DNA of 34,623 bases from Pseudonocardia sp. SCN 73-27 (lineage in GTDB: Bacteria > Actinomycetota > Actinomycetes > Mycobacteriales > Pseudonocardiaceae). The position numbers were made by a program, and so were the translations under genes. The notes beneath the pieces were generated by a model. The model was not told where the DNA came from. It was given only the letters and a program-made list of their open reading frames with translations, and made no database searches. Shown piece after piece: positions 11,366-27,590 of this stretch. How positions within the stretch are numbered: the first letter of the stretch is position 1; each line of letters starts with the position of its first letter. The stretch lies in NCBI GenBank assembly GCA_001725415.1, contig MEGH01000062.1, positions 1 to 34,623 on the forward strand. Direction: 5' to 3'.

Positions 11366-12853
11366 TCACGACGCGCAGCGCGCCCCCTCCGCCGGCAGCT
11401 CACCACGGGTCAGCGCCGCGCCACCCGCCGCCGCCATGCACTGCGACCGGTAGAAGCTGGTGTGCCCCATCGTGTCCAGCACGAGCACCCGTGAGCCCGC
11501 GATCATGGAGTGCAGCTCCTCGCCGTTCTCCAGCGGCGTCTCCGCGTCGGAGGTGTTGCCCAGGATCAGCACCTTCCCCGCGACCGGCCTCGTCGGGAGC
11601 GGCAGCGGGCCGTCCTTCACCGGCGGGCACGCGGTCGTGTTCGTCAGCGCGAACGACGACGCGAACGCCCCGAGCCGCGGCGAGACCTTCGCCGGGTCGG
11701 AGGCAGCCGCCTGCACCTCCGGCAACGTCAGCCGCATCGGCCAGTCGGCACACGAGACGAACTGGAAGATCTCCGGGCCGTTGGTGAACGTCCCGTCGGG
11801 CCGCTGCCCGGCGATCCCCAGGCCGACGGCGTAGAGCATCGACGGGTCGCCCTTTCTCAGGTAGGCGGCGACCGCCTCCTCGGCGGCCTCCTGGCTGCCG
11901 CCGTAGTCGACCAGGCCTGCCAGCACGATCTGGTGGACCAGCCCGGCCGTGAGCCGTTTGCCGTCGGTACCGGGCACCACCGGCTGCTCGGCCCGCACCT
12001 TCGCGAACAGGGTGTCGTAGCCGGCGCCCGGGTCGGGTCCGAACGCGCAGTCCGGCTTCGCCGCGCACCGCGCGAACCAGCGGTCCAGCGAGTCCTGACC
12101 GGCGCGGACCATCCCGTCGGCGGTGTCCTTCGCGGTCCCCTTCTGCGACATCGACCCGTCGAGCACCATGTTGCCGACCGTGTTCGGGAACATCGCCGCG
12201 TACGTCGCGCCGATGCGGGTGCCGTAGGACAGGCCGAGGAAGTTCAGCGTCGGAGCGCCGGCCGCGATCCGCATCGCCTCGAGGTCACGCACGCCCTGGA
12301 CGGTGCCGAGCACGCCGAGATAGGTGCCGTAGCGGGCCACGCAGGCGTCACGACGCTGCTGCGCCGCCGCCGCCATCGCCTGCAGGCCTTCCGGGGTGCC
12401 GGGGTCGGCCTCGAAGTAGGCGATGTTGCCCTCGGCGCACGTGATCGGGGTGCTCGTCCCGAGACCCCGCGGGTCCCAGGTGATGATGTCGAGCGACCCG
12501 CCGGTGACGTCGGATATCGCCTTGCCGCGCGTGCGGATCGAGGTGTTGCCGGAGTCGCCCGGGCCGCCCCAGTTCACGAACATCTCGCCCGTGCGCGCGC
12601 CTGTCGCCGGCAGCTGCGTCATCGCGATCGAGATCTTCTCGCCTGCCGGTGCGTTCCAGTCCTTCGGAACCTCGATCGTCGTGCACCGGAACCCGTCACC
12701 GCAGTCGGTCCAGCTCAGCGTGGGCGTCATCGGCGCCGCCGACGTCGACGAGGCCGGTGGGTCCGCCGTCGCGGCCGGATCACCGGAACAGGCGGCGACG
12801 GCGAGTGCGACGGTGAGGACGGCCGCCACCCCCACCGGTCGGAAGCGAGGCAT
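11366..12853 (-). CDS. Secreted alpha/beta-hydrolase lipoprotein (tripeptidyl aminopeptidase-like)
   Basis: This 495-residue protein begins with a signal peptide ending in a lipobox (LAVAAC near residues 16-21), so the mature protein should be lipid-anchored outside the membrane. The body has the alpha/beta-hydrolase fold of the SlpD/SlpE and mycobacterial Hip1-like family: nucleophile elbow GLSYG, the oxyanion region NWGGPGDSG, the acid in ILGNTSDAETP and the catalytic His in DTMGHTSF near the C-terminus. Relatives remove short peptides or act as esterases. The ATG at 12853 follows GGAGGG on the minus strand. It diverges from the two-component system, with 163 bases between the starts, and may be one of its targets (inference). 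Confidence 0.87.
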   Translation of the reverse strand: MPRFRPVGVAAVLTVALAVAACSGDPAATADPPASSTSAAPMTPTLSWTDCGDGFRCTTIEVPKDWNAPAGEKISIAMTQLPATGARTGEMFVNWGGPGDSGNTSIRTRGKAISDVTGGSLDIITWDPRGLGTSTPITCAEGNIAYFEADPGTPEGLQAMAAAAQQRRDACVARYGTYLGVLGTVQGVRDLEAMRIAAGAPTLNFLGLSYGTRIGATYAAMFPNTVGNMVLDGSMSQKGTAKDTADGMVRAGQDSLDRWFARCAAKPDCAFGPDPGAGYDTLFAKVRAEQPVVPGTDGKRLTAGLVHQIVLAGLVDYGGSQEAAEEAVAAYLRKGDPSMLYAVGLGIAGQRPDGTFTNGPEIFQFVSCADWPMRLTLPEVQAAASDPAKVSPRLGAFASSFALTNTTACPPVKDGPLPLPTRPVAGKVLILGNTSDAETPLENGEELHSMIAGSRVLVLDTMGHTSFYRSQCMAAAGGAALTRGELPAEGARCAS

Positions 12854-12932
12854 CGTCAGTCCCTCCCCGGCGCGGCGATCGGTGCCGGACCGAATCGCCT
12901 CAACGATCCCGGCGGCAGGCTCGGCGGCCAAT

Positions 12933-12971
12933 GGCCCTGGCCCCCAGTGCCCAGGGGGCCTGGGCCCCCTG
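12933..12971. promoter_or_regulatory. Two mutually exclusive hairpins in the divergent region
   Basis: Segment 12933-12945 pairs with 12954-12966 (12 of 13 positions) around an 8-base loop. A competing perfect hairpin uses CAGGGGGC at 12952-12959 and GCCCCCTG at 12964-12971. Both cannot form at once. They lie between the lipoprotein and kinase starts. An attenuator or a protein-binding site is possible; extreme GC content alone can also create such pairings. Confidence 0.35.
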
Positions 12972-13002
12972 TTCCGGAGATCCGTTTCGGTCCCTTCGGC
13001 CC

Positions 13003-13019
13003 TACACTCGCCCGCAGTG
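13003..13019 (+). promoter_or_regulatory. Possible leaderless start of the kinase mRNA
   Basis: TACACT at 13003-13008 resembles a -10 box and lies eight bases before the GTG at 13017. No ribosome-binding sequence is visible before this GTG. Leaderless transcripts of this type are common in actinomycetes. No convincing -35 box is seen. Confidence 0.35.
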
Positions 13020-14754
13020 GACGGAGCGCCCGCAGGTTCGTTCCGACGCCGACCCGCTGGGTCGGCTGTCCGGCCTGCCCTGGTCCTTCTGGCGGTGGCC
13101 GCCGTCGCCCTCGCGGTCGCCGAGGCCGTCGTCGCGGTCGGCGGCCCGATCCGACCGTCCTGGTACGGAACCCTGTACCCGGTCGTCGGCACCGCCTACG
13201 TCGGTTCCGGCCTGCTGGCCTGGTACCGCAGGCCCGCCAACCGGATGGGTCCGCTGCTGGTCGGCGCGGGCGTCGTCATGTACCTCGCCGGGTTCGAGCT
13301 GACCGGCGTCGTCCTGCTGGGCGCGATCGGGCTCGTGTTCTCCCTCGCCCCGATCGCGGTGATCCTGCACCTGCTGCTCGCCTTCCCGACAGGACGGCTC
13401 ACCGGGCGACCTGCGCGCGCCCTCGCGGCGACCGGTTACCTGCTGGTGGTCGGCACCGACCTGGTGCAGCACCTGCTGGAACCGGCGACGCCGCTCGGGG
13501 TCGCCGACGCGCCCACCGTCGTCGCGGTCCTCGGGCAGGTCCAGGCATTCGGGACGATCACGCTGATCCTCGCGACGTCCGCGCTGCTCGTGCACCGGTT
13601 CCGGCGCGCCACCCGGGCCCAGCGACGCACCCTCGCGCCCCTGTACGCCTTCGGGATCCTGACCATCCTCTACATCGTCTTCGCCGCGAACGTGTTGCCG
13701 CCGCTGTTCGGCATCGGCCTGTCCGCGGTCGCGTCCAGTCAGGTCGTCGCGATCGGGCTGATCCCCTTCGCGTTCGCCCTCGGCGTGCTGCGCGGCGGCT
13801 TCGCGCGCACTGCGGCGCTGGAGGACCTGGGGCTCTGGCTCGCCCGCGGCGACCGCGACCCCGAGGCCGTCCGCCACGCCGTCGCCGAAACCGTCGGCGA
13901 CCCCGACGCACGCATCCTGTTCCGCGTGGAGGACTCCTACGTCGACCCCGCCGGGCAGCCCGCCGACCCCGGCCCGGCCCACTCCCGCGTCGTCCTCGAC
14001 GGCACCGATATCGCCGCGATCGGCTACGACCCCGTCCACGTCCCCGACGCCACACACGTCGACGCCGTCGGCGGGATCGTCGCCATCGCGCTCGACCGGC
14101 AGCGCCTCGTCGCCGAGCTGCGGGCCTCCCGCGCCCGCGTCACCGAGGCCGCAGACGCCGAACGCCGCCGCATCGCCCGCGACCTGCACGACGGCATCCA
14201 GGCCCGGCTCGTCCTGCTGCGGCTGCAGGCCTCCGGCGGCGTCGGCGCCGACCCCGGTCCTGCTGCTGCTGCAGGTCTCCGGCGGCGTCGGCGCCGACCC
14301 CGGCTCGATCGTCGACGGCCTCGACCGGGTCATCGACGACCTGCGCCGCCTCGTGCACGGCGTCATGCCGGCGATGCTCGTCGAGAACGGGCTCGCCGCC
14401 GCGGTCGAGGACCTCGCCGACCGACTGCCCGTCCGCACAGACGTCGACGTCCGCACCGGCGACTCCGTACTGCCGCCGGTCGTCCAGAGCGCCGCCTACT
14501 TCCTCGTCGCCGAGGCGCTCACCAACGCCGTCAAGCACTCCGGCGCGTCCCGGCTCACCGTGCGCGTGCACCGCGACGACGCCGCCATGCACATCGAGGT
14601 GTGCGACGACGGCCGCGGCGGCGCCCGCATCGACGGGCACGGCGGGCTGCGCGGCGCCCGCGACCGCGTCGAGGCCCTCGGCGGCGGGTTCGAGGTGGCC
14701 GACCTCCCCGGCGGCGGCACCCGGCTGCTGAGCAGGTTGCCGTGCGCGTCGTGA
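13017..14754 (+). pseudogene. NarL-type sensor histidine kinase, frameshifted by a 46-bp duplication
   Basis: The N-terminal part (GTG at 13017) codes for about eight membrane helices (residues 20-260), a linker and the HisKA_3 dimerisation motif RRRIARDLHDG with phospho-acceptor His391. The ATP-binding domain follows but in the next frame: N-box EALTNAVKHS, DDGRGG and the GGLRGARDRV lid, ending at TGA 14752-14754. The frame is broken by an imperfect 46-bp tandem duplication at 14211-14302. Removing one copy gives a continuous kinase of 563 residues. As written, the upstream frame has no stop and runs on into the response regulator in frame, which would yield a 790-residue hybrid without an ATPase domain. 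It is either a true switch or mutation, or an assembly error. Confidence 0.8.
14211..14302 (+). repeat. 46-bp imperfect tandem duplication inside the kinase gene
   Basis: Copy 1 is 14211-14256 and copy 2 is 14257-14302; both begin GTCCTGCTGC and end CCGACCCCG and differ at two positions (G/T at the 11th base and C/T at the 20th). The unit is 46 bases, one more than a multiple of three, so it shifts the kinase frame by +1. The two differences mean the copies have diverged or come from two strain variants placed in series. Confidence 0.95.
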
Positions 14755-15389
14755 TCGGCGAGGACGAGCCCCTTCTCCGCGAAGGGCTCGCCCTCCTTCT
14801 GTCCCGCAACGGTTTCGACGTCACCGCCGCGGTCGGTGACGCGGAGGCGCTGCGGGCGTCGACGGCTGTGGAGCATCCCGACGTCGTCGTCACCGACATC
14901 CGGATGCCGCCCGGCGAGACCGACGACGGTCTGCGCGCCGCCCTCGACATCCGCCGCGGCGACCCGCCCATCCCGGTCCTGGTGCTGTCGCAGCACGTCT
15001 CCCGCCGCTACGTCACGACGCTGCTCGGCGACCGCACCGGCGGCGTCGGCTACCTGCTCAAGCACCGGGTCACCGACGTCGAGGGCTTCTGCGACGACCT
15101 GATCCGCGTCGCGAAGGGCGGCGTCGTGCTCGATCCCGAGGTCGTCTCGGTGATGGTCGGCCGTTCCGCACGTGACGACGGCCGGGTCGACCGGCTCACC
15201 CCCCGACAGCTGCAGGTGCTGGGGCTCGTCGCGGAGGGGCGCAGCAACCTGGCGATCGCCACACGGCTGGGGATCACGGAGAAGGCCGTCGCCCGCCACG
15301 CCGCGCAGATCTACGACACCCTCGACCTGCCGCCGAGCCTCGACGACCACCGCCGGGTGCTGGCCGTCGTCAGGTTCCTGGACCGCTGA
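14742..15389 (+). CDS. NarL/LuxR-type response regulator
   Basis: This 215-residue regulator has a receiver domain with acidic GEDEP at the N-terminus, phospho-acceptor Asp52 in VVVTDIRMPP and the conserved Lys in GYLLKHR. It has a C-terminal LuxR-type HTH (about residues 150-213) recognised by LTPRQLQVLGLVAEGRSN. The GTG at 14742 gives the receiver its normal N-terminus and overlaps the kinase stop by 13 bases, as expected for a coupled kinase/regulator pair. The partner kinase is disrupted. The regulator itself is intact, so it could still respond to small phospho-donors or another kinase. Likely targets, by position only, are the divergent lipoprotein gene and its own operon. Confidence 0.92.
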   Translation: MRVVIGEDEPLLREGLALLLSRNGFDVTAAVGDAEALRASTAVEHPDVVVTDIRMPPGETDDGLRAALDIRRGDPPIPVLVLSQHVSRRYVTTLLGDRTGGVGYLLKHRVTDVEGFCDDLIRVAKGGVVLDPEVVSVMVGRSARDDGRVDRLTPRQLQVLGLVAEGRSNLAIATRLGITEKAVARHAAQIYDTLDLPPSLDDHRRVLAVVRFLDR

Positions 15390-15403: not shown

Positions 15404-15965
15404 TCAGTGGTCGCGGCTGCCCGCTGCTGACGACGGCGCGACCTCGGACGTGCCAGACGCCGTCGTCCGGCGAGTGCGCGGTGAGCCGGCGCGCCTGCCG
15501 CAGCCACGACGCGGCGGTCTCGGGCCAGTCGACGACGGCGAGCACCCGCCCCCCGCGATCGTTCCAGGCCTGGGCGACGGCGTCGGCAGCCGCCGCGGAG
15601 GCGGGGTCGCGACCGTGTCCGACGGCGATCCCGCCGCCGAACCGGAGGCAGAGCCCGGCGACCAGGTCGAGGACGGTCTCGAGCTCGGCATCGGTGTGCA
15701 GCGTCGGGGCGCGGTCGGCGCGCCAGCGGGCATAGGCGTCGGGCAGGCAGACCCCGCACGGCCGGTACCCGGCGGCGACGGCCGTGGCCTCGTCGGCGAA
15801 GAACACCCGGTGGTCGACGTAGTGCCCGCGGGCCAGGGCGCGCCGCGCCGAGGGACAGTCGAGCCGCCCGTAGATGCGCCGGCGCCGGTAGCCGCCGACC
15901 GTCCCGGGCGTGGCGCTGACGAACGGCTGCCCGTCGGCACCGAGAAGCGTGTAGGGGGCGGGCAC
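15404..15965 (-). CDS. Ada-like metal-binding domain protein (3' end uncertain)
   Basis: From GTG at 15965 the protein starts MPAPYTLLGADG and contains an Ada-type zinc module near residues 25-75: YGRLDCPSARR followed by FFADEATAVAAGYRPCGVC. Canonical Ada has four Cys (C-x3-C...C-x2-C); here the first position is Gly, leaving three. A second domain with DLVAGL, VGHGRDPAS and GRVLAVVDWPETAASWL follows, which I do not recognise. In frame, no stop occurs until 14496, antisense to the whole response regulator, which is implausible. A stop in the neighbouring frame at 15404, 14 bases from the regulator stop, suggests a frameshift near 15440 (about 187 residues). It lies one base after the 2OG oxygenase gene in the alkylation-repair operon. 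Confidence 0.55.
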
Positions 15966-24367: not shown

Positions 24368-25843
24368 TCACGCCGGCGGGAACGGGTGCGAGATGTACTT
24401 CGTCTCCAGGTACTCGTGCAGTCCGACGTCGCTGCCCTCGCGTCCGAGGCCCGACTGCTTCATCCCGCCGAACGGAGCGGACGCGTCGGACACGAGGCCG
24501 CGGTTGAGCCCGACCATGCCGCACTCGAGGGTGTGGGCGGCCCGCGTGAGCCGCGCCGCGTCCCGCGACCAGGCGAACCCGACGAGGCCCGCGTCCGTGT
24601 CGGATGCGATCCGCAACGCTTCCTCCTCGGAGTCGACGAGGCGGACGGACGCGACCGGCGCGAAGACCTCTTCACGCCAGACCGCCGAGTCCGTGCGCAC
24701 GTCGGTCAGGAGGACCGGCCGCAGGAACGCCGACCCGGGCTCGGGATCGTCGGACAGGACCGGTGTCGCACCGTCGGCGATCGCCGCCCGGACGAGCCCG
24801 GCCGCACGGTCGCGTTGCCTGTTGTCGATCATCGGGCCGAGGGTCGTCGCCGGGTCGGCACCGTGCCCGACGACCTGGGCCCGGAGCCGGTCGGCGAACG
24901 CCGCGACGAACTCGTCACCGACACGGCGATCGACGATGAACCGGTTCGCTGCGACGCAGCTCTGCCCGCCGTTGCGGAGCTTGGCGACGACCGCGCCGTC
25001 GACCGCGGCGTCGAGGTCCGCGTCGGCGAAGACGATGAACGGGGCGTTGCCGCCCAGCTCCATCGACGTCCGCAGCACCCCGTTCGCCGAGGCCGCGAGC
25101 AGGCGGCGGCCGACCTCGGTGGAGCCGGTGAAGGAGAGCTTGCGGATGCGACGGTCGTCGAGCATGCGGGCCACGACCTGCCCAGGCCGCGAGGTCGTGA
25201 GCACATTGACCACCCCCGGCGGCACGCCGACCTCGACGAGGAGGTCCGCGAACAGCAGGGCGGTCAGCGGTGTCTCCTCGGCCGGCTTGACGACGACCGT
25301 GCACCCCGCGGCGAGGGCGGGCGCGATCTTGCGGGTCAGCATCGCCAGCGGGAAGTTCCACGGGGTGATCAGCAACGACGGCCCGACCGGCTGCCTGATC
25401 GTCGTGTGGAACGCGGTGCCGTCGGGGGCTGTCCGCGTCGTGCCTGTTGCGCGCACCGCCTCCTCGGCGTACCAGCGGAGGAACTCCCCGCCGTACGCGA
25501 CCTCCGCCCGCGACTCCGCGAGTGGCTTGCCCATCTCGCTCGTGATCACCGACGCGAACTCGCCCGCCCGGGCCATCAGGAGATCGTAGGCCGCACGCAG
25601 CATCTCCCCCCGGTACCGCGGAGCGGTCCTCGACCAGCTGCCGAAGGCCGTCGCCGCGGCATCCACGGCGTCCACCGCGTCCTCCGGTGCGGCGTCGGCG
25701 ATCTCGGCGAGGGTCGACCCGGTCGCAGGGTCCGTCACGACCAGCGGCGCGCCGGCCGTCCGTGGCTCGCGCCATTCACCCGCGACCAGCAGCTGCGTCG
25801 GCGCGGCAGCCACGGCCGGCGCCGGGAGGGACGTCGTGCTCAT
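24368..25843 (-). CDS. NAD(P)-dependent aldehyde dehydrogenase (succinate-semialdehyde type)
   Basis: This 491-residue enzyme has the full ALDH set: PWNFPLAMLTRKIAPALAAG, cofactor loop FTGSTEVG, general base Glu262 in MELGGNAPF and nucleophile Cys296 in NGGQSCVAAN. The C-terminal APFGGMKQSGLGREG and the tail YLETKYI resemble GabD-type succinate-semialdehyde dehydrogenases. It oxidises an aldehyde, possibly a dicarboxylic semialdehyde, to the acid in the cytoplasm. The ATG at 25843 overlaps the permease stop (ATGA), so the two are coupled. With HyuAB across the divergent promoter, a route from lactam through an amino acid to a semialdehyde is attractive but inferred. Confidence 0.9.
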   Translation of the reverse strand: MSTTSLPAPAVAAAPTQLLVAGEWREPRTAGAPLVVTDPATGSTLAEIADAAPEDAVDAVDAAATAFGSWSRTAPRYRGEMLRAAYDLLMARAGEFASVITSEMGKPLAESRAEVAYGGEFLRWYAEEAVRATGTTRTAPDGTAFHTTIRQPVGPSLLITPWNFPLAMLTRKIAPALAAGCTVVVKPAEETPLTALLFADLLVEVGVPPGVVNVLTTSRPGQVVARMLDDRRIRKLSFTGSTEVGRRLLAASANGVLRTSMELGGNAPFIVFADADLDAAVDGAVVAKLRNGGQSCVAANRFIVDRRVGDEFVAAFADRLRAQVVGHGADPATTLGPMIDNRQRDRAAGLVRAAIADGATPVLSDDPEPGSAFLRPVLLTDVRTDSAVWREEVFAPVASVRLVDSEEEALRIASDTDAGLVGFAWSRDAARLTRAAHTLECGMVGLNRGLVSDASAPFGGMKQSGLGREGSDVGLHEYLETKYISHPFPPA

Positions 25844-27504
25844 GCCTGCGGCTCCGTGGCCTTCTGGGTGGCGTCCACCGCGACCGGTGTGGTCGACACC
25901 GTCCGCGCCTCGGCGTAGGAGGCACGCAGGTAGGCGTTGTCGTTGCTGCCGCATTCGCCGCAGATCGGAGCGTGGTCGGGGGTCGCCGGGTTCCGATCCA
26001 TCTCCTGGGCGATGTAGGACCGCTCGCACGAGGAGCACTCCACCCGTGCCTCCCACGGGTCGTCGACCTCGAAGCGAGGATCGTGGGGGCGGATCAGCCG
26101 GACGTGCCGCTCCCCGGTGAGGTACCGGCCGATCGTGTAGAGGACGCCCGCGATCAGGAAGGCGAACGGCGGCGCCCACGTCGCCCCGAACGATCCGCCG
26201 GCCTCGACCATGACGATCCCGGTCACCGATGCGACGAGCCACGAGCCGAGCCCGACGACGTTGAACGCGGGGACCCGTCCGGGACGGAACTCGAACTCCT
26301 CCGACCGGCGACGGTCACGCCGCGCGAACACGAGGTACACGAGTGCGATCGCGACCCAGGCCACGACGACGACCCCCTGCCACTGGAGCGCTTTCAGCAG
26401 GTAGGAGATGGCGTTCGTCAGCATCAGCGCGAAGACCGCGACACCTGCCAGCACCACCCAGACCCGGCGCGGGAGCCGGATGCGGAACACGCGGGCGAAG
26501 AAGCTCTCTGCGTTGATACTCGCCAGGTAGTAATTGGCCGTGTTGATCCTGGTCTGGCTGACCCAGACCAGCGCGACACCGAAGATTCCGGTGAGGCCGA
26601 CGATCGCCTGCACCGCAGAGAGCTCGGTCAGGGTCGTGCCCGCGGTGAGGCTGTGCGCGAGGAAGATACCCACGACGGCGTTCACGCCCAGGGTCAGCGT
26701 GTAGAACAGCGGGCCGAAGGTGAGCCACTTGTGGAACCGGGCATCGGCGGTCTTCGCGAGCCGGGCGTAGTCCCACGTGAAGGGCTTCATGATCCACACG
26801 CCCATGTAGACCGAGAAGGCGAAGACCCAGCCGGGCGCATGGAAGTTCACCTGCGGGTCGACGGGGCCGGCGGTGAGCCAGTCGTTGCTGTAGCCGTTGA
26901 CGACGATCGTCCAGACGACGGCGACGGTCAGGCCGATGTAGTAGAAGGGCAGCAGGACGCCGTTCAGTTTGTCGAGCCAGGTGCGCACGCCGCCGATGAC
27001 GATCGGAATGCTGTACGCGGCGACGATCAGGTACCAGATCTGGATGTTTCCCCACCCCGTGTACTGGTGGAACACCTCAGCGACGACAGAGCCTTCGAAA
27101 ACGGCGTAGTAGAGCGCCGTTGCGCCGACGATCAATGGCGCTACCGCGGCTCCGAGATAGCCGAACAACGCGCGCGAGAACAGTGCACTGGATATCCCGG
27201 TGCGTGCGGCGTGTCGCCCCAGGAGCGTGCCGAAGACGCTGTAGGCGATGATCGACAGGCCGAGGCCGATCAAGGTGTCGCGCGTTCCGACGGCGAGCGA
27301 CACCGTCGCCCCGACGATCAGCCAGAACATGGCGCTCGCGAACGCGTACCACGCCATCAGCAGCGATACCCGTCCTGACCTCCATGTCCTCGGGGCGACA
27401 TGGAGCGCGTAGTCCTCCGTTCCCGCGCTCTTGACCACGCGCGGGTCGTCCTCGAAGGACACCCGAAGTGGCGCCAAGGAACCTGTTCGATCTTCCCCAC
27501 TCAT
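25840..27504 (-). CDS. NCS1-family permease with C-terminal zinc ribbon
   Basis: This 554-residue protein has 12 hydrophobic segments and NCS1 features such as an N-terminal WRSGRVSLLMAWYAF, ALYYAVFEGSVVAEVF and MKPFTWDYARLAK. The family imports cytosine, purines, allantoin, hydantoins or related N-heterocycles with Na+ or H+. After the last helix (about residue 470) comes a soluble tail with Cys490-x2-Cys493 and Cys515-x2-Cys518, which looks like a small zinc ribbon or rubredoxin-like knuckle. I do not know this as a standard part of NCS1 proteins. The ATG at 27504 has GGAGG seven bases upstream. It heads the minus-strand operon with the aldehyde dehydrogenase, divergent from hyuAB. Confidence 0.88.
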   Translation of the reverse strand: MSGEDRTGSLAPLRVSFEDDPRVVKSAGTEDYALHVAPRTWRSGRVSLLMAWYAFASAMFWLIVGATVSLAVGTRDTLIGLGLSIIAYSVFGTLLGRHAARTGISSALFSRALFGYLGAAVAPLIVGATALYYAVFEGSVVAEVFHQYTGWGNIQIWYLIVAAYSIPIVIGGVRTWLDKLNGVLLPFYYIGLTVAVVWTIVVNGYSNDWLTAGPVDPQVNFHAPGWVFAFSVYMGVWIMKPFTWDYARLAKTADARFHKWLTFGPLFYTLTLGVNAVVGIFLAHSLTAGTTLTELSAVQAIVGLTGIFGVALVWVSQTRINTANYYLASINAESFFARVFRIRLPRRVWVVLAGVAVFALMLTNAISYLLKALQWQGVVVVAWVAIALVYLVFARRDRRRSEEFEFRPGRVPAFNVVGLGSWLVASVTGIVMVEAGGSFGATWAPPFAFLIAGVLYTIGRYLTGERHVRLIRPHDPRFEVDDPWEARVECSSCERSYIAQEMDRNPATPDHAPICGECGSNDNAYLRASYAEARTVSTTPVAVDATQKATEPQA

Positions 27505-27575
27505 GAGGTGCCTCCGAGGATCTGCGAGAAGAACTGTCGGCGAGATGGCCGGTATTGCGCATCCGCGGCGGGTCG

Positions 27576-27590
27576 TTCGCATGTCGCGAA
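27576..27590. promoter_or_regulatory. Small palindrome in the permease leader
   Basis: TTCGC (27576-27580) is inverted as GCGAA (27586-27590) with five bases between. It lies between the predicted permease promoter and its ATG, where a repressor could bind. Confidence 0.3.

Follow-up and report, generated by a model that had tools for sequence, protein, structure and literature searches.

A 46-bp tandem duplication within a HisKA_3 sensor-kinase gene of a draft Pseudonocardia genome, and its possible origins

In the draft genome of Pseudonocardia sp. SCN 73-27, a 46-bp unit stands twice in tandem within a sensor-kinase gene, and the frame that enters the repeat runs on into the gene of the adjacent response regulator. 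The question is whether this arrangement is a mutation that inactivates the kinase, a fault of assembly, a reversible switch, or the gene for a hybrid protein. The window, meaning the entire stretch of DNA analyzed, comprises all 34,623 bases of contig C62 (GC 71.6%) and comes from a draft whose 99 contigs add up to 6.95 Mb, with completeness 99.99 and contamination 4.16. According to domain searches, the locus is preceded by genes for an alpha/beta hydrolase, an AraC-type regulator and a flavin oxidoreductase, and followed by those for an Oxygenase-NA protein and an MFS transporter; it is an ordinary chromosomal neighbourhood. Two other open frames in the window, both on the minus strand, have no match in Pfam or NCBIfam: one of 178 aa (15404-15940), directly downstream and facing the regulator gene, and one of 580 aa with coding-like composition (25840-27582; no match at E 0.001).

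Reading frames and repeat

The N-terminal part of the kinase, whose GTG start codon is assumed, comprises 413 aa and closes with the first 25 positions of HisKA_3, a helix with the DLHDG motif and with His391, the presumed phospho-acceptor (Table 1). Counting this part as frame 0, the ATPase part lies in frame +1 and the regulator in frame 0 again; the regulator gene (start codon likewise assumed) overlaps the end of the kinase gene. A receiver and a LuxR-type DNA-binding domain, both above cut-off, identify the regulator as NarL-type. The HisKA_3 helix and HATPase_c are both present, split over two frames. With one unit the kinase has 563 residues followed by a stop, and with two units the run-on frame has 790 residues and enters the regulator in frame.

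Table 1. Features of the kinase/regulator locus (positions in the window)
Feature	Position	Strand	Evidence or remark
Kinase N part (membrane sensor region, then the first HisKA_3 helix, which carries His391)	13017..14255	+	HisKA_3 E 7e-07, residues 382-406
Unit, copy 1	14211..14256	+	matches G028 ortholog at both variable positions
Unit, copy 2	14257..14302	+	holds both changes (unit positions 11, 20); +1 frame shift
Run-on linker in the frame of the N part, 162 residues, 45% Arg	14257..14741	+	translation composition
Kinase ATPase part, out of frame with N part	14302..14754	+	HATPase_c E 1.7e-11; 75% identical to G028 ortholog
NarL-type response regulator	14742..15389	+	Response_reg E 2e-15, GerE E 1.1e-09

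The repeat begins eight codons after the codon for His391 (14187-14189). Its two copies agree at 44 of 46 bases, differing at 14221 versus 14267 and at 14230 versus 14276, and have an exact stretch of 27 bp in common; TRF gives the span as 14211-14303, with one extra unit base after copy 2. The duplication is not due to chance. Identity at a lag of 46 is 96% in the window, versus a best value of 65% in 200 triplet-shuffled windows, and with 20 shuffles and lags of 40-199 the best match was 67%, again versus 96%. An earlier note on this DNA had described the tandem duplication with its two differences and its +1 shift, the separation of the N part from the ATPase domain in the two-unit form, and the lengths of the two products; the first is exact in the assembly, the second is borne out by the different frames of HisKA_3 and HATPase_c, and the lengths agree with our recomputation.

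A TRF survey for gap-free repeats with a period of at least 20 and an identity of at least 90%, which took in the window and 60 other stretches of 20 kb, together 1.23 Mb of this genome, returned 13 repeats. Three of the 13 are flanked on either side by a strong coding signal (GC3 of at least 0.90) in the same orientation; two of these have a period of 24 and keep the frame, and only the repeat in the window breaks it. The other ten, which have weaker or opposite-strand signals, are by eye intergenic, at gene ends or frame-keeping. Since no other in-gene frame-breaking repeat is found among the 13, a break of this kind would not be a recurrent fault of the assembly.

Two further loci may be recorded here. 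In L049 (5940-6102; G000:C7, at about 246 kb), a 77-bp tandem repeat (91%) apparently lies between two diverging genes, one of which looks, by eye, like a protein kinase. L075 (8514-8702, minus strand; G000:C38) encodes a 62-aa precursor peptide made of two near-identical halves, which matches NCBIfam NF040715, the streptamidine-related RiPP repeat proteins, with 121 bits versus a cut-off of 45.

The run-on frame in relatives

The run-on into the regulator had been presented in the earlier note as a special feature, from which a membrane-tied hybrid regulator could arise. That the two-unit allele yields such a functional protein of 790 residues is highly improbable, despite a reading frame that is open throughout. 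Its linker is not only Arg-rich but consists to 88% of R, P, A, G or H, and in the 790-aa product Pfam at E 0.001 matches only regulator domains, with neither HisKA_3 nor HATPase_c. A hybrid kinase-regulator carries a receiver and a kinase core with ATPase in one chain, whereas the 790-aa product carries no such core. The note had itself called a functional hybrid doubtful in view of the Arg-rich linker (45% over 162 residues).

Open frames are, moreover, cheap at this locus, as seen from the run-on frame being open even further upstream (ORF 12423-15389, 988 aa). For a control among relatives, 87 loci were taken, 76 of which gave a hit; after three representing the window itself, 22 duplicates and the stop-less L005 were dropped, 50 were kept and counted regardless of the intactness of each gene. 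The regulator stands in the same relative frame to the kinase in 42 of the 43 relatives with a regulator found, L082 being the exception. The alternative frame equivalent to the run-on passes the kinase stop in 42 of the 50 relatives and is open for more than 450 nt beyond it in 38, whereas only four have the remaining alternative frame open past the stop. For the 46 relatives with a GC of at least 0.70, the corresponding figures are 39, 35 and 4. The equivalent frame is open in most relatives because kinase and regulator are out of frame with each other in DNA of about 72% GC. Being latent in most relatives, the open run-on frame is to be expected; it lends no support to a hybrid protein, and the claim of a special feature is not supported. 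A caution follows for genomes rich in GC in which kinase and regulator genes overlap: as the alternative frame usually stays open as far as the regulator in pairs of this kind, a chance frameshift easily mimics a gene fusion.

Unit number in relatives and the question of assembly

With one unit, the hairpin of the kinase, counted from the His motif to 'xVMP', is 43 residues long. The relatives have hairpins of 41-58 residues (n = 49 measured), with 46 or fewer in 11 of the 49. In detail, L006 has 41, ten have 44-46 and 37 have 47-58, while the single value of 72, from L116, is a motif miss. L006 is the nearest paralog in the same genome (58-60% in the ATPase part). Judged by spacing, the one-unit form fits the relatives, at the short end of their range.

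The closest counterpart is an ortholog in genome G028, whose regulator is 81% identical over 211 codons. It starts with LLRLQA at the end of its contig (C155, locus L088), which ends 3 bp inside the repeated unit, at unit position 4, and its reading frame goes on unbroken from the counterpart of copy 1. As it agrees with copy 1 at both variable positions, both changes belong to copy 2. With its upstream half missing, this ortholog is a partial witness, and it could have had a second unit there. Its N part was found in neither a DNA nor a protein search. Among 390 family genomes a full-length ortholog is absent, this sole partial one stopping at the unit; in the same set, full-length relatives of the N part stay at or below 44% identity (E 1e-60 or better; 13 genomes matched), and partial matches reach 46%. 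A scan of the contigs of the genomes gave 18 loci, each matching only short stretches around the His motif; the relatives named there belong to Micromonospora, Lentzea, Amycolatopsis and Pseudonocardia. Both the hairpin spacing and the cut-off ortholog fit the one-unit kinase that had been proposed as the continuous form.

The age of the break was approached by comparison with the same ortholog. The ATPase part gives dN 0.19 and dS 0.55, the regulator dN 0.13 and dS 0.63 (NG86), and in a tree of the ATPase part, designed for up to 15 sequences and reduced to six by duplicates and absent names, the end branch is 0.19 for the window versus 0.24 for G028. The ATPase part has no visible decay, and the break is therefore either recent or not real, although the comparison is weak for a young break, in which mild decay would stay hidden.

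A break that is not real could have come about if two contigs or reads sharing a 46-bp overlap had been joined without merging it, and one of them contained errors close to its end; the true gene would then have one unit. We take this to be a serious, if somewhat doubtful, possibility. It is in line with the undecayed ATPase part and the draft state of the genome. The stop of C155 at unit position 4 points the same way: with about 1250 contigs in 6.1 Mb, the chance that one of them ends no more than 3 bp from a chosen base is about 0.3% (post hoc arithmetic). In addition, both changes of copy 2 relative to copy 1 and G028 lie within its first 20 bases, where two changes free to fall on 92 bases would land by chance in about 5% of cases (our own arithmetic). 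However, the survey of 13 repeats in 1.23 Mb holds no second in-gene frame-breaker, and G028 also breaks near further kinase genes, so that the break in C155 need not involve the unit. The kinase match in C283 stops 16 bp short of the contig end, and those in C674 and C484 lie 118 and 148 bp from the contig start; several G028 contigs besides C155 end in or near sensor-kinase genes. Strong folding at the site is a weak candidate cause, as about 5% of the 190-bp stretches in the window fold equally strongly. The 16-base start of the G028 contig was also considered as an assembly repeat and set aside, its exact matches (four in G028 and three in G000, controls one each) being too few to account for a break.

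A possible inactivating duplication and its parallels

Our preferred reading, held with moderate confidence, is a spontaneous tandem duplication, real and recent, that inactivates the kinase gene. Assembly error is its close rival, and these two, which the earlier note had offered as alternatives, are now the best readings. In the preferred one, an ordinary HisKA_3 sensor kinase would have had 46 bp of its gene duplicated in tandem, either in this strain or not long ago in its ancestry. The frame would shift directly after the phospho-acceptor helix, and no complete kinase would be made. Ribosomes would translate a senseless Arg-rich stretch before they reach the overlapping regulator gene, and their product would be at most a badly folded, membrane-tied protein, presumably devoid of function. 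The regulator would be deprived of its partner kinase and probably also of its normal translational coupling. That the duplication is present in the cell, where the kinase would then be inactive, is suggested by the domains being intact on both sides in two frames, by a one-unit hairpin within the range of the relatives, by a G028 ortholog whose frame is kept beyond the counterpart of copy 1, by the shorter end branch of an undecayed ATPase part, by the lack of a second in-gene frame-breaker among the 13 repeats surveyed, and by the duplications of 26-116 bp in Xenorhabdus lrp (PMC6786866). Against it, the evidence comes from one draft assembly, and the G028 contig end and the mismatches of copy 2 also fit a joining of contigs.

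As any tandem duplication, this one could in principle revert, and a reversible switch, in which some of the cells would gain or lose the unit and with it lose or regain the kinase, has been proposed. Slippage can remove a unit from a tandem repeat, and the copies have an exact 27 bp in common; on-off switching is known for two-component systems, as PMC12124856 describes. We nevertheless consider the switch unlikely, given that there are just two units, mismatched at two of 46 bases, that the evidence is one assembly of one strain, and that conservation of the repeat is not demonstrable in 390 family genomes that hold no full-length ortholog. Equally unlikely would be bet-hedging, by which a two-unit minisatellite with a useful rate of gain and loss leaves some cells kinase-less, with a regulator that is uncoupled and perhaps membrane-tied. 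Were the switch true, it would be a further two-component system toggled by DNA rearrangement, here in an actinomycete. As for recoding, in which the ribosome slips by one base in the second unit, no known slippery site was recognised there by eye.

The preferred reading, inactivation by duplication, is best seen beside known systems. The locus shares domains and gene order with overlapping pairs of HisKA_3 kinase and NarL-type regulator, but in this case the second unit interrupts the frame of the kinase. A reversible 64-bp duplication is said to occur in Ralstonia phcA, reportedly described by Poussier in 2003. In Xenorhabdus lrp, three of 25 mutations are tandem duplications of 26-116 bp, according to PMC6786866, which also describes phenotypic reversions without genetic reversion and, in a legend, eight tested isolates without duplications. 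As at this locus, a short tandem duplication there destroys a regulator gene, but the mutants were seen arising in culture, whereas ours is known from one draft genome. In a sensor-regulator gene of Pseudomonas tolaasii, a 661-bp duplication accompanies phenotypic switching (Han 1997, as cited in PMC12124856); like ours it lies within a sensor-kinase gene, but the unit is larger and switching is reported, whereas here the duplication is known from one assembly. Duplications that cause switching in sensor genes are thus already known, and this locus, provided that its duplication is real, would add to the instances of duplication in such genes and to the regulator genes that short tandem duplications have disabled.
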